This document shows positions 25,084-30,415 of a DNA stretch of 64,000 bases, in pieces. Each line of letters begins with the position of its first letter. Position 1 is the stretch's first letter. The translations under genes were made by a program, and so were the position numbers. Below the pieces are notes generated by a model. That model searched no databases. It was given only the letters and a program-made list of their open reading frames with translations, and was not told where the DNA came from. Source of the stretch: Arthrobacter sp. 260 (lineage in GTDB: Bacteria > Actinomycetota > Actinomycetes > Actinomycetales > Micrococcaceae); NCBI RefSeq assembly GCF_013116745.1, contig NZ_JABFOE010000003.1, positions 124,001 through 188,000 on the forward strand. The letters run 5' to 3'.

Positions 25084-25109
25084 GGAATGCTTCGGGAAAA
25101 ATCTGTGTT
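25084..25109 (+). promoter_or_regulatory. SigR/SigH-type promoter for ino1
   Basis: GGAAT (25084-25088), exactly 18 nt, then GTT (25107-25109): a full match to the thiol-stress ECF sigma consensus GGAAT-N18-GTT. Transcription would start about 80 nt before the ino1 GTG. A 12-bp palindrome CTGATATATCAG (25066-25077) lies just upstream and may bind a regulator. Confidence 0.7.
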
Positions 25110-25199: not shown

Positions 25200-26285
25200 G
25201 TGGGAACTAACCCCATTAGGGTGGCAATTGTTGGTGTCGGCAACTGTGCGGCGTCACTGGTACAAGGCGTTCATTACTACCGGGATGCGGACGCGACGGC
25301 GTCGATTCCCGGGCTGATGCACGTGGAGTTCGGCAAGTACCACGTCAATGACGTTGAGTTTGTTGCTGCCTTCGACGTCGACGGCAAGAAGGTGGGGCTG
25401 GACCTCGCCGACGCCATCGGCGCCAGTGAGAACAACACCATCAAGATCGCCGATGTACCCCCCACCGGCATCAAGGTGCAGCGCGGCCACACCCTGGACG
25501 GCCTGGGCAAGTACTATCGCGAAACCATCGTCGAATCAGATGCCGAGCCCGTTGACGTTGTCGCGGAGCTCAAGGCCAACCAGGTTGACGTCATGGTCTG
25601 CTACCTGCCCGTCGGGTCGGAAGACGCTGCACGGTTCTACGCCCAGTGCGCGATCGATGCGAAAGTGGCGTTCGTCAACGCACTCCCCGTCTTCATCGCC
25701 GGCACCAAGGAGTGGGCAGACAAGTTCACTGCCGCCGGAGTGCCAATTGTCGGGGACGACATCAAGAGCCAGATCGGTGCCACCATCACGCACCGCGTGA
25801 TGGCGAAGCTGTTCGAGGACCGCGGGGTCACCCTGGACCGCACCTACCAGCTGAACGTCGGCGGCAACATGGACTTCAAGAACATGCTCGAGCGCGACCG
25901 GTTGGAGTCCAAGAAGGTCTCAAAGACACAGGCTGTGACGTCGAACGTGCAGGCCGACCTCGGTGAGCGCAATGTGCACATCGGCCCGTCCGACTATGTC
26001 GCCTGGCTTGACGACCGGAAATGGGCCTTCGTCCGTCTGGAGGGCCGCAACTTCGGTGACGCGCCTGTCTCGCTCGAGTACAAGCTTGAGGTCTGGGACT
26101 CACCGAACTCGGCCGGCGTCATCATCGACGCGATCCGTGCGGCGAAGATCGCCCTGGACCGTGGAATCGGTGGACCGCTGCTCTCAGCGTCCAGCTACTT
26201 CATGAAGTCCCCGCCGGAGCAGTTCGCCGACGACATCGCCCACGAGAAGGTCGAAGCCTTCATCCGCGGAGAGCTCGACCGCTAG
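25200..26285 (+). CDS. ino1: Inositol-3-phosphate synthase (actinobacterial type)
   Basis: Converts glucose-6-phosphate to inositol phosphate with bound NAD+, the first step to phosphatidylinositol and mycothiol. 361 residues as in other actinobacterial Ino1 proteins. The NAD-binding start is [18 protein letters not shown]. Later blocks are [41 protein letters not shown] and [21 protein letters not shown] start with AGAGGAG 6 nt upstream. Single-gene unit with its own predicted SigR-type promoter and a large hairpin after the stop. mshA, which uses its product, is 3 kb away. Confidence 0.96.
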
Positions 26286-26463: not shown

Positions 26464-28155
26464 CTAGAAGAGCCCGACGGCGCCGCCGTCGTCGTCCACG
26501 TCCATGCGCATTGCCGCGGGATCCTTCGGTAGTCCCGGCATCGTCATCACCGTTCCGGTCAGGGCAACGATGAAACCGGCCCCGGTCTTCGTGATCAGAT
26601 CGCGGACGTGCACAGTGAACCCCTTGGGGGCGCCGAGCACCGTGGGGTCGTCGGAGAAAGAGTACTGGGTTTTCGCCATGCAGACCGGTAAATGTCCCCA
26701 TCCGTTGGCTTCGATCTCGGCGAGCCTGCGGAGCGCTGGCACGGAGAAGTCGACGCCGTCGGCGCCGTAGATCTCCTGGACAATTGACCGGATCTTGTCC
26801 TCGACCGGGAGCTCCAGCGGGTACAGATGATGGAAGTCCTGCGGCCCGTCCAGTGCGGTGAGGACCTTGGCTGCCAGCTCATCCCCACCCGAGCCGCCAC
26901 CACCTGCTCCCCAGACGTCCGCGACGGCCGCTTCGATCCCCTCGCCTGCGCACCAGGACAGCAGCCACTGGAGCTCTTCTTCGGTGTCGGTGGTGAACCG
27001 GTTGATCGCGACCACCGGTGTAATGCCGAACTTTTCGACGTTGTGCACATGGCGTCGCAGGTTCGCGACCCCCGTTTCCAGGGCCGCGGTGTCCGGTTCC
27101 CGCAGGTCCGCCTTCGCTACACCACCGTGCATTTTCAGGGCGCGGATGGTGGCGACGATGACGACGGCGGCAGGCGCGACGTCGGCGAAGCGCGCCTTGA
27201 TATCCATGAACTTCTCCGCGCCAAGATCGGCGCCGAAGCCTGCCTCGGTGACCACGATGTCCGCTAACTGACGGGCAGTGGTGGTGGCGATCACCGAGTT
27301 GCAACCGTGGGCGATGTTGGCGAACGGGCCCCCGTGCACCAGTGCCGGGGTGCCGGCGATGCTTTGCACCAGGTTGGGTTTAATCGCGTCGCGGAGCAGC
27401 AGGGTGAGGGCACCCTCCACCCCCAGGTCCCCCACGGTGACGGGCTGCCGGTCAAACGTGTACCCGAAGGTGATCCGTGCCAACCGTTCCTTGAGGTCCG
27501 CGAGATCCGAGGCCAGGCAGAAGACAGCCATGATTTCGGAGGCAACAGTAATGTCGAACCCGTCCTGACGGGGGGTGCCCTGGGTGGGCCCACCCAGCCC
27601 GATCACTACCTCCCGCAGTGCCCGGTCATTCATGTCCAGGACACGTTTGAAAGTGATCCGGCGGGGGTCGATGTTCAGCTGGTTGCCCTGGTAGATGTGA
27701 TTGTCCACCAGTGCCATGAGCGCATTGTTCGCTGAGGTTACCGCGTGGAAATCTCCGGTGAAGTGAAGGTTGATGTCCTCCATCGGCAGCACCTGGGAGT
27801 ACCCGCCGCCAGTCGCACCGCCCTTCATGCCAAGAATTGGTCCCAGGGACGGCTCGCGCAGGGCGATCATCACGTTGCGCCCGGATCGCGCCAGGGAGTC
27901 AGCCAGTCCGACGGTACAGGTCGATTTTCCCTCACCGGCCGGGGTGGGGCTCATGGCGCTGACGAGGACCACCTTGCCCGGTTCCTTCCCCGGGACGGTG
28001 CGCAGCTTGCGGGTATCGATCTTGGCCTTGTACCTGCCGTAGTGTTCAAGCGCCTCCGCCGGGATACCCGCTCCGGCGGCAATCTCGTCGATGGGCTGGA
28101 TGGCAGCGTTGCGGGCGATGTCCAGGTCACTGGCGGGTGTGGGCAAAGACTTCAT
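26464..28155 (-). CDS. fhs: Formate-tetrahydrofolate ligase
   Basis: ATP-driven synthesis of 10-formyl-THF from formate and THF. From the chosen start it is 563 residues, the normal size. The P-loop-like ATP site is [11 protein letters not shown] (about residues 68-78); [20 protein letters not shown] and the C-terminal [12 protein letters not shown] are family signatures. In-frame starts also exist at 28164 and 28230; AGAGGAT stands at the right distance from the ATG at 28155, so that one is preferred. It feeds the same folate pool as the glycine operon 6 kb away, but it is a separate unit. Confidence 0.95.
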
Positions 28156-28253
28156 TGTCGACATATCCTCTGGGCTCGTGGCGCGGGGATGGGGGTCCGG
28201 CGTGTACCCGGGGGTCGGGGCACACGCCAAATCTACCAGCGGCCCACCGTTGC

Positions 28254-29018
28254 TCAGCGGAGCCCGGCCCGCTCCAGCAGGTACTGGATCATCGGTTCAT
28301 AGAGTCCGGGACACACGTTGTCGTCGAGCGGAACAGCAACGGCCAGCTGCCCCTCAGCTTCCGAAACGAACAGGCCGGGATCGTTGCAGTCGGCGAAGCC
28401 CAGCGCGGGGATGCCGGCGCTGGCGGCGAATCCCGCCCAGCCGTGGTCCGCCACCACCAGGTCGGGGCTCGGCTCCCCGGTCGCTGCCAGCAACTCAAGG
28501 CTCAGCTGCATGGGATCTGGGGAGTGGGTGTGCATCAGGGACCCGTGCTGGTGCCAGACCAGCACCCCGAAGAGCTGCCGGATGTCACCCGCCCCGAAGT
28601 GTTGGCCCTCGGGAACTTCAACCACCGTGGCGCCGGCCGCACGTGCCGCGGCGGCCAAGGCTGCGTGGACCGGGAGGAGGCCAGCGGGGTGGCCGGTGGC
28701 GAAGAGAATCCGGTGTCCGGCTGCGACCGCAGGGCCGAAGACGGCAGCGAAACGATCCAGCGCGGCGACGCACTTGGCCGCGTCGATGGTGTCCTGCCCG
28801 GAGAGGTGGGAACGGTCAGGGTTGATGCCGACCCGTTCGTGCATCAGGTCGAACACCTCATCGACTGTCCACTCGCGCGTGGTGCGTACCCCGAACCCCA
28901 GGTGCTCGCTGCCCTCAAGAAACAGCTGCATGTGGCGGAGGTTGTCACGGCGGTCGGTGGCAACCGCTCCGGTGATCAGGACAGAGTCGAGGTAGGCGGC
29001 AAGTTCGGTGGAGTTCAC
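28254..29018 (-). CDS. Predicted actinobacterial phosphatase, downstream of mshA
   Basis: A 254-residue soluble protein of a family I recall as a putative actinobacterial phosphatase (PF15698-like); that recall is not certain. Conserved-looking stretches are [24 protein letters not shown] near residue 25, [15 protein letters not shown] near residue 104, [17 protein letters not shown], and [28 protein letters not shown]. The many His and Asp residues in these blocks suit a metal or phosphoryl-transfer site. It begins 41 nt after mshA on the same strand, so both are probably read from the SigR-type promoter. That makes it a candidate for the unassigned phosphatase step after MshA in mycothiol synthesis. 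Confidence 0.6.
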
Positions 29019-29059
29019 CCTCCCATCCTAGGTGAGGCCTACGGGCCCCTCCGGGCGGG

Positions 29060-30307
29060 TCAGCGTGCTGCGGCCTCCTGGAAGCGCTCCACGGCGGTGC
29101 GGTAACTTTGAGCAGTCAGGAGGGCAGTGCGTTGCCAGCCGAAGGCCAGCGCGTGGATCGCTGCACCCCGGCCCAGCAACGCGCGGGTGCCGGCGTCGTC
29201 GTACATGGACTCCAGTGCCGCCGACCAGAGTTCCGGCGTATGCCCGTTCACCAGGATGCCGGTGCGCCCGTCGCTGATGGCCTGGGGCAACCCGCCGACG
29301 TTTGCGGCAAGTACGGGGGTGCCGCATGCCTGCGCCTCGAGCGCCACCAGGCCGAAGGACTCGCTGAAGGACGGCATCGCCACGAGGTCTGCTGCGCGGA
29401 ACCAGTGCGCAAGCTGGTTCGCTTGCACCGGCGGGTAGAGCTGAACCCTGCCCTGCAGGCCGGCGTCGTCAATGAGGGGCTGCAACCGCAACGCCTCCGC
29501 GCCGCTACCGGAGCCAAGGATACTCAGTTGCAGGGGGATGTCGGGGCGGCGCGCTGCGAGGTCCGCGGCGGCGGCAACCAGCACCTGTGGGCCCTTGAGT
29601 TTCTGGATTCGTCCGGCGAACACCACGTGGAACGCTTCGGGAGGGAAGTTGAGGCTGGCACGGGAAGTTTCCCGGGAACCGGGGTTGAACGTTTCCAGGT
29701 CAACACCGGGGGCGACGATGTCTACCCTTTCGGGGACAGCGCCGTACAGGGACTCCAGTTCGGCGGCCTCGGTGGTGGTATTGGCGATGAGCCGGGACGC
29801 GCCGTCGACGATTGTCTGTTCACCGAGCACCCGGACGTCCGGCTCAGGGGTGCCACCGGTGTGCAGCCGAATATTCTTCACCCGCGCCATGGTGTGCATT
29901 GAATGGACCAGCGGAAGGTTCAGGCTGGCTCCGACTGTCAGGCCCACGCTCCCGGACACCCAGTAGTGCGAGTGGATGACATCGAAGTGACCGTCGGCCA
30001 AAAGATCGGTGACCTCGGCGATGGCGTCGGTGAACGATTCCGAGAGGTCCGGCAACTGTTCCTTGGGCACTTTGCGCTGGGGGCCGGCCCGAAGGTGCCT
30101 GACCATGACTCCGGGAGCCAGTTCCTCGGAGTGCGGCTGGCCTTCAGAGGCGGCACGGGTGAAAATCTCGACGTCGATGCCGACGCGGGCAAGTTCGAGG
30201 GCAAGGGACCTCACGTACACATTCATCCCGCCGGCGTCGCCCGCCCCGGGTTGATCCAGCGGGGAGGTGTGCAGAGACAGCATTGCCACGCGTTTCACTG
30301 GCGGCAT
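29060..30307 (-). CDS. mshA: D-inositol-3-phosphate glycosyltransferase
   Basis: Transfers GlcNAc from UDP-GlcNAc to inositol 3-phosphate, the first committed step of mycothiol synthesis. GT-B/GT4 enzyme of 415 residues. The N-terminal domain has RVAMLSLHTSPLDQPGAGDAGGMNVYV and the YWVSGSVG loop; the C-terminal donor site is SESFGLVALEAQACGTPVLA. The length is slightly below some orthologs (430-480). Its own SigR-type promoter lies about 80 nt upstream, and the predicted phosphatase follows. Confidence 0.95.
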   Translation of the reverse strand: MPPVKRVAMLSLHTSPLDQPGAGDAGGMNVYVRSLALELARVGIDVEIFTRAASEGQPHSEELAPGVMVRHLRAGPQRKVPKEQLPDLSESFTDAIAEVTDLLADGHFDVIHSHYWVSGSVGLTVGASLNLPLVHSMHTMARVKNIRLHTGGTPEPDVRVLGEQTIVDGASRLIANTTTEAAELESLYGAVPERVDIVAPGVDLETFNPGSRETSRASLNFPPEAFHVVFAGRIQKLKGPQVLVAAAADLAARRPDIPLQLSILGSGSGAEALRLQPLIDDAGLQGRVQLYPPVQANQLAHWFRAADLVAMPSFSESFGLVALEAQACGTPVLAANVGGLPQAISDGRTGILVNGHTPELWSAALESMYDDAGTRALLGRGAAIHALAFGWQRTALLTAQSYRTAVERFQEAAAR

Positions 30308-30389: not shown

Positions 30390-30415
30390 AACGTGCTGTG
30401 CGGGCTGCACATTCC
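30390..30415 (-). promoter_or_regulatory. SigR/SigH-type promoter for mshA
   Basis: On the minus strand GGAAT (30415-30411), exactly 18 nt, then GTT (30392-30390), a full match to the thiol-stress consensus. It is about 80 nt upstream of the mshA ATG and beyond the terminator at 30462-30487, so it serves mshA alone. SigR control of mshA is known in Streptomyces. Confidence 0.75.

Follow-up and report, generated by a model that had tools for sequence, protein, structure and literature searches.

The step of mycothiol biosynthesis that follows MshA is known by an activity name, MshA2, which in the relevant passages of PMC4360819, PMC9736012, PMC10826361, PMC10893638 and PMC2628429 appears without a locus, the last of these using it for an allele as well. 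The mycothiol phosphatase is described as missing in PMC2834668, where ImpC (Rv3137) is suggested for the role and impA, suhB and cysQ mutants are reported to have normal mycothiol. ImpC is treated as HisN by PMC5516325 and PMC7994828. The former gives the substrates of ImpA and Cg0911 as unknown and notes Cg0911 orthologues in Micrococcaceae; it also describes a Corynebacterium glutamicum mutant lacking all five inositol monophosphatases (IMPases) that grows on minimal medium, so that either the IMPases are not the only route in C. glutamicum or the step is dispensable there. A literature search found no paper assigning a gene for the mycothiol phosphatase, no paper naming the Pfam family PF15698, and no origin for the name 'Phosphatase' that this family bears. 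The PF15698 protein described here is a candidate for the MshA2 activity, adjoining mshA in genomes with MshC, and what is new relative to the Pfam entry is its tie to mshA in one lineage together with its fold.

The window, that is, the whole stretch of 64,000 nucleotides of Arthrobacter sp. 260 DNA that was analysed, presents the candidate in the following setting:

29060..30307, minus strand: mshA, D-inositol-3-phosphate glycosyltransferase (TIGR03449, 498.4 bits, cut-off 462.5)
28254..29018, minus strand: PF15698 gene, 254 amino acids, predicted uS2-type fold, candidate MshA2 (Pfam 305.3 bits, pLDDT 97.5, Z 13.0)
30390..30415, minus strand: SigR-type site GGAAT-N18-GTT upstream of mshA (pattern match; similar position in 13/13 named Arthrobacter loci)
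25200..26285, plus strand: ino1, inositol-3-phosphate synthase (TIGR03450, 689.4 bits, cut-off 638)
25084..25109, plus strand: SigR-type site GGAAT-N18-GTT upstream of ino1 (pattern match; relatives' loci)
26464..28230, minus strand: formate-tetrahydrofolate ligase (FTHFS), next downstream of the PF15698 gene on the same strand (NF010030, 914.3 bits)

The PF15698 gene lies behind mshA on the same strand across an intergenic gap of 41 nt (29019-29059). Its product matches the PF15698 profile over model positions 1-256 of 256 (cut-off 28.4 bits), and the profile is matched by all 39 of 39 aligned homologues of the window protein. The GTG start codon stands immediately after GGGAGG, a tighter spacing than ribosome sites usually show; translation may therefore begin elsewhere, which leaves the length of the gap approximate. 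The first-pass annotation, which had placed a phosphatase-family gene 41 nt after mshA on the same strand and a SigR-type site upstream of mshA, is borne out by the profile scores, the coordinates and the site at 30390-30415; its term 'predicted phosphatase' agrees with the PF15698 match, but the functional label is the Pfam name alone. The enzyme encoded by ino1 makes the inositol phosphate used by MshA, and ino1 shares a 19-21 kb locus with the mshA–PF15698 pair in 12 of the 13 named Arthrobacter loci, while the formate-tetrahydrofolate ligase is probably not part of the mycothiol pathway.

The predicted structure of the PF15698 protein clearly has the fold of ribosomal protein uS2. The AlphaFold model, obtained with 39 homologues, reaches a pTM of 0.94 at the pLDDT given above. 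The 50 Foldseek matches listed are all ribosomal entries (best E 2.2e-5, query TM-scores 0.35-0.49), with several of the chains being uS2, and the 50 VIA-align matches listed are ribosome or S2/laminin-receptor entries, in which the chains named in the titles are S2 or its eukaryotic relative; the VIA-align superposition on uS2, with Z 13.0, covers 171 of the 254 residues at 3.0 Å. No known phosphatase is found among the 50 matches listed by either program. Like uS2 (PF00318), the PF15698 protein carries the common fold over most of its chain; unlike it, it has diverged to about 15% identity, and the window's genome carries a separate uS2. A profile comparison against 24 actinobacterial uS2 sequences gave an E-value of 0.0012 and a probability of 19.6%, the DTNCDP and NDD motifs of uS2 aligning with DxNDP and DDN of the PF15698 protein, and a common ancestry of the two families is plausible. 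The PF00318 sequence profile hit 1 of the 39 homologues, at E 0.34, which does not place them in that family, and a search of solved structures by sequence gave no convincing match (best E 0.078), the uS2 chains found there being weak as well. The invariant or nearly invariant residues include T108 G109 H110 P111, H163 T164 H165, D191 H192 G193, D210, D213 P214 and D232 D233, and they are located at or shortly after the predicted strands 103-107, 160-162, 187-191, 205-209 and 227-230. Since the conserved residues gather at strand ends in the model, a common pocket is plausible.

The association with mshA holds throughout the window's family, in which PF15698 is present in 23 of 120 genomes and 7 of 32 genera. 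In 22 of 22 flanked loci the gene immediately upstream, in the same orientation, is an MshA-like GT4 gene, the 23rd locus running into a contig edge and falling outside this count. The upstream MshA-like proteins, the window's included, range from 35 to 100% identity; the curated MshA cut-off is passed by only 40 of the 120 family genomes, and in one genome (G477) MshA finds no match at a limit of 1e-50, so some of the MshA-like neighbours of PF15698 are evidently divergent. Among the best 80 of 578 confirmed loci, for which names were available, the pair is found in 15, namely in 13 of 13 Arthrobacter loci and in Haematomicrobium and Kocuria, the distance from mshA to the PF15698 match ranging from -4 to 73 nt. 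The 65 named loci without the pair belong mainly to Streptomyces and its relatives and to Brevibacterium, and include one Rothia locus cut by a contig end. Where PF15698 is missing, 14 of 23 family loci have FTHFS behind mshA in the same orientation, which is the window's order minus one gene; in the others a convergent ino1 was seen in 2 and no match to the window genes tried in 7. No substitute phosphatase was found directly behind mshA in these 23 loci by matching against the window's genes, 13 of them being also viewed by eye.

A role for SigR in mshA expression has precedent, as mshA is a member of the SigR regulon according to PMC4255298. SigR-type sites were defined as GGAAT-N17..19-GTT upstream of a gene, the stricter GGGAAT missing the window's mshA site. 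The window contains 8 such sites, where chance alone would give 3.45, so the single site before mshA is weak on its own. A site nevertheless precedes the MshA match by 76-107 nt in all 13 named Arthrobacter loci, with differing spacers, compared to 3% of 6000 random 415-nt stretches. No SigR-type site was found before mshA in the Haematomicrobium and Kocuria loci, in 22 PF15698-negative relatives (one locus of the 23, L096, was left out, and L072 has one loose match), or in the loci of five other PF15698-positive genera, where some of the upstream stretches are short. The site is thus a feature of the genus and its nearest kin.

The presence of PF15698 is accompanied by a smaller complement of PF00459 IMPases, which average 1.78 per genome in the 23 PF15698-positive and 3.01 in the 97 PF15698-negative genomes of the family (p 7e-11; for genus means, 7 positive against 25 negative genera, p 0.012). 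This superfamily (HisN, SuhB, ImpA, CysQ, Cg0911) carries out the kind of reaction proposed here for PF15698, to which no sequence relation was found: PF00459 does not match the PF15698 protein even at a limit of E 1, and an hhalign control of PF15698 against IMPases gave E 0.28 over 21 columns. For typing, 115 IMPases, three of them entered as two rows each, were taken from the 23 positive genomes and from 24 negative ones, each from a different one of the 25 negative genera, and clustered at a patristic distance of 2.5. Clusters 3 and 5, whose sizes are unchanged at a distance of 3.0, are called IMP3 and IMP5 in this analysis. These two subfamilies and PF15698 are mutually exclusive in the window's family. 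Either IMP3 or IMP5 is present in 23 of the 24 negative and none of the 23 positive typed genomes, the two are never found together (0/47), and exactly one of PF15698, IMP3 and IMP5 occurs in 46 of 47. MshC exceeds its cut-off in all 47 typed genomes, including 23/23 with PF15698, and the phosphatase step is hence expected to be needed in each of them. A combined IMP3/IMP5 profile, on which held-out members score 213-302 bits and other IMPases at most 168, extends the pattern at a limit of 200 bits to all 120 family genomes, with hits in 94 of 97 PF15698-negative and 0 of 23 PF15698-positive ones; outside the profile-building set, 71 of 73 negative genomes have a hit. The top score in a positive genome is 167.8 (G493), and G494 carries two copies. 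The three genomes of genus g251 (G409, G439 and G463) have neither PF15698 nor IMP3/IMP5, MshC being present in G409, and this genus may hold a fourth solution to the phosphatase step.

Both IMP3 and IMP5 are PF00459 IMPases, and their best solved-structure matches are SuhB and inositol monophosphatases. The remaining IMPases are distributed differently. Cluster 7, of which the one member scanned is HisN-like with 271.9 bits on a fragment (HisN cut-off 275), is present in 47/47 typed genomes and is the sole IMPase in 10 of the 23 positive ones. Cluster 6 is SuhB-like, the two members inspected having RR-x-GSAA, the SuhB motif of PMC5516325, and it is found in 13/23 positive and 23/24 negative genomes. 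The small clusters 1, 4 and 2 occur in 3, 1 and 0 of the 23 positive and in 2, 1 and 1 of the 24 negative genomes, respectively. IMP3 or IMP5 may correspond to the Cg0911 or the ImpA group of PMC5516325. An identity of IMP3/IMP5 with HisN was rejected, as the three members scanned gave 91-120 bits against the cut-off of 275, and so was a location of IMP3 beside mshA: of the nine stretches with IMP3, 6 have a gene for a UvrD-type helicase nearby and 5 a gene of the succinyl-CoA-ligase type, these names deriving from one member of each type identified by Pfam.

The number of evolutionary events behind this exchange is smaller than the counts. On the best tree from MshC and HisN, which was built by a quick method and has good support for 14 of its 44 inner branches, the PF15698 label changes 5 times, at least 2 of the changes being forced by well-supported branches, and all states together require 7 changes. 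PF15698 and the IMPase trait are opposite in nearly all pairings, and the supported branches yield 2 independent pairs, a number with which a sign test cannot reach significance. The informative part is the Arthrobacter-like clade, within which PF15698 and IMP3 interleave. As the genomes are related and the switches few, the exclusion is clear in count and modest in independent events.

The sequence-based exclusion pattern fits three interchangeable phosphatases for one step. The reading preferred here, at a probability of about one half, is that PF15698 is a lineage-specific MshA2 whose place is taken in relatives by enzymes of the IMPase type. The PF15698 protein would remove the phosphate from GlcNAc-Ins-P, the MshA product, and yield GlcNAc-Ins for MshB; it would be made from the mshA transcript and, given the SigR-type promoter, rise together with MshA under thiol stress. 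The residues of the TGHP, HTH, DHG, D-x-N-D-P and DDN motifs would form a metal-dependent hydrolytic pocket in the uS2-fold protein, and in relatives without PF15698 either IMP3 or IMP5 would do the same job. Other inositol-phosphate substrates for the PF15698 protein are possible. More tentative is the full picture, in which a uS2-fold protein has turned into a metal-dependent phosphatase that trades places with two separate IMPase subfamilies, almost every lineage of the window's family having exactly one of three MshA2 enzymes that are unrelated or only distantly related to each other. If the exclusion means what it seems to mean, three candidate MshA2 enzymes are named at once, the use of lineage-specific enzymes explains why the phosphatase gene has been hard to find, a ribosomal-protein fold is seen employed as an enzyme, and the step gains a non-pathogenic test system; if the full picture is true, two orphan IMPase subfamilies would also gain an assignment.

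It is also conceivable, though unlikely, that PF15698 is interchangeable with IMP3/IMP5 for a different substrate, free inositol-3-phosphate or a phosphatidylinositol phosphate, in which case the linkage to mshA and ino1 would reflect a shared use of inositol phosphate. That the best solved matches of IMP3 and IMP5 are SuhB and inositol monophosphatases suits such a substrate, as does the presence of ino1 in the 12 of 13 Arthrobacter loci, where it often has its own SigR-type site: this lies at -113 to -128 in 10 of the 13 named loci with ino1, while one of the remaining three has a site at -299 and two have none. The direct neighbour is, however, mshA in 22/22 loci and ino1 in only some, and the SuhB-like cluster 6 is kept in over half of the PF15698-positive genomes (the 13 of 23), so that inositol phosphate may already be served there. 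Ten genomes of family f15 (G022, G037, G049, G061, G073, G084, G095, G106, G117 and G149) have both MshA and PF15698 and a single MshC/CysS-type match each, at the CysS level, which is in favour of another substrate; the MshA product may serve a non-mycothiol purpose in these genomes, or another ligase may be used. As a separate observation, an ino1 with its own SigR-type site suggests that the inositol phosphate supply may share the stress control of mshA.

Similarly doubtful is the view that PF15698 is a uS2-fold binding or regulatory protein and no phosphatase, kept near mshA by inherited gene order and alternating with IMP3/IMP5 through a few lineage-specific losses. The ribosomal fold, a function name that comes from Pfam alone and the few independent switches on the tree all agree with it, and so does the gene order in other classes. 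Outside the window's class the linkage itself recurs, which speaks for the preferred reading: 61 genomes have both MshA and PF15698, and in 28 of these both are on one contig among the matches listed; 27 of the 28 pairs are within 25 kb (median 10.2 kb), all 27 on one strand and 26 with PF15698 downstream, while the other 33 genomes either have the two genes on separate contigs or have no MshA position among the matches listed. In the out-of-class regions examined, mshA and PF15698 travel in a block that also includes proC, an HTH gene and a gene of the histone-deacetylase type, among others, and inheritance of this common block may explain part of the linkage there. Yet the pair is kept in two distinct chromosomal surroundings, beside FTHFS/ino1 in Arthrobacter and in the proC block elsewhere, the strongly conserved His/Asp motifs look catalytic, and PF15698 interleaves with IMP3 in the Arthrobacter-like clade. 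These points argue against a non-enzymatic protein, to which the PF15698 genomes without an MshA match (22/95, below) lend some weight.

In a sample of 396 genomes from the phylum, PF15698 is found in 95 and MshA, at a match limit of E 1e-70, in 167; both are present in 73 genomes, PF15698 only in 22, MshA only in 94 and neither in 207. MshA thus accompanies PF15698 in 73/95 genomes and occurs in 94/301 of those lacking it (odds ratio 7.3), an enrichment whose p-value is overstated because the genomes are related. At a limit of 1e-100 the group with PF15698 only rises to 27. Some of the 22 found at E 1e-70 may be assembly gaps, but 13 come from a single family, f18, in which no genome shows more than one MshC match, at the CysS level. 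In the window's own family PF15698 is absent from 97 of 120 genomes, 96 of which have an MshA match at E 1e-50 (G464 has none), and it was found in 0 of 14 control genomes, C. glutamicum among them. Mycothiol makers accordingly do not all carry the PF15698 family, nor is it restricted to them. The full reach of the first-pass proposal, with PF15698 as the missing MshA2 wherever mycothiol is made, draws on the enrichment among these related genomes but is highly improbable, and a universal MshA2 is ruled out, since PF15698 is absent from 94 of 167 MshA genomes, from C. glutamicum and from the 97 genomes of the window's family.

What survives of that proposal is the candidacy within a lineage, strengthened by the complete linkage to mshA (22/22), by the complementarity with IMPases and by MshC in 47/47 genomes, but not as the general missing enzyme. 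Adjacency to mshA, which the first-pass annotation had named as a check, is found at every flanked locus in the family; a restriction to mycothiol makers, its second check, does not hold, as an MshA match is lacking in 22 of the 95 genomes with PF15698. The occurrence in many species lacking mshA, which it regarded as evidence against the idea, is seen in part, in those same 22 genomes.

Several lineages show PF15698 in other surroundings. In the f18 loci L067 and L068 its neighbours include genes for an enoyl-CoA hydratase, a thioesterase and an NAD-epimerase-type protein (identified in L067), and with these neighbours and no MshC-level match a different role is likely in f18. Six Brevibacterium genomes have PF15698 and no MshA-like gene on the flanking stretch, and their best genome-wide MshA score is 315 bits, below the cut-off, although some MshA proteins of the window's family score as low. 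In Streptomyces, where SCO2771 is probably one of the PF15698 copies, five genomes were measured, and in these the full-length copies lie at a distance of 0.4-0.9 Mb from mshA. Two full copies are carried by 10 of 11 Streptomyces-like (f5) genomes (loci L009-L019 and L051-L055); in those examined one lies by acyl-CoA dehydrogenase and biotin carboxylase genes and the other by a histone-deacetylase-type gene, neither near mshA. Finally, PF15698 is also found on plasmids, in two records from Embleya and Nonomuraea.
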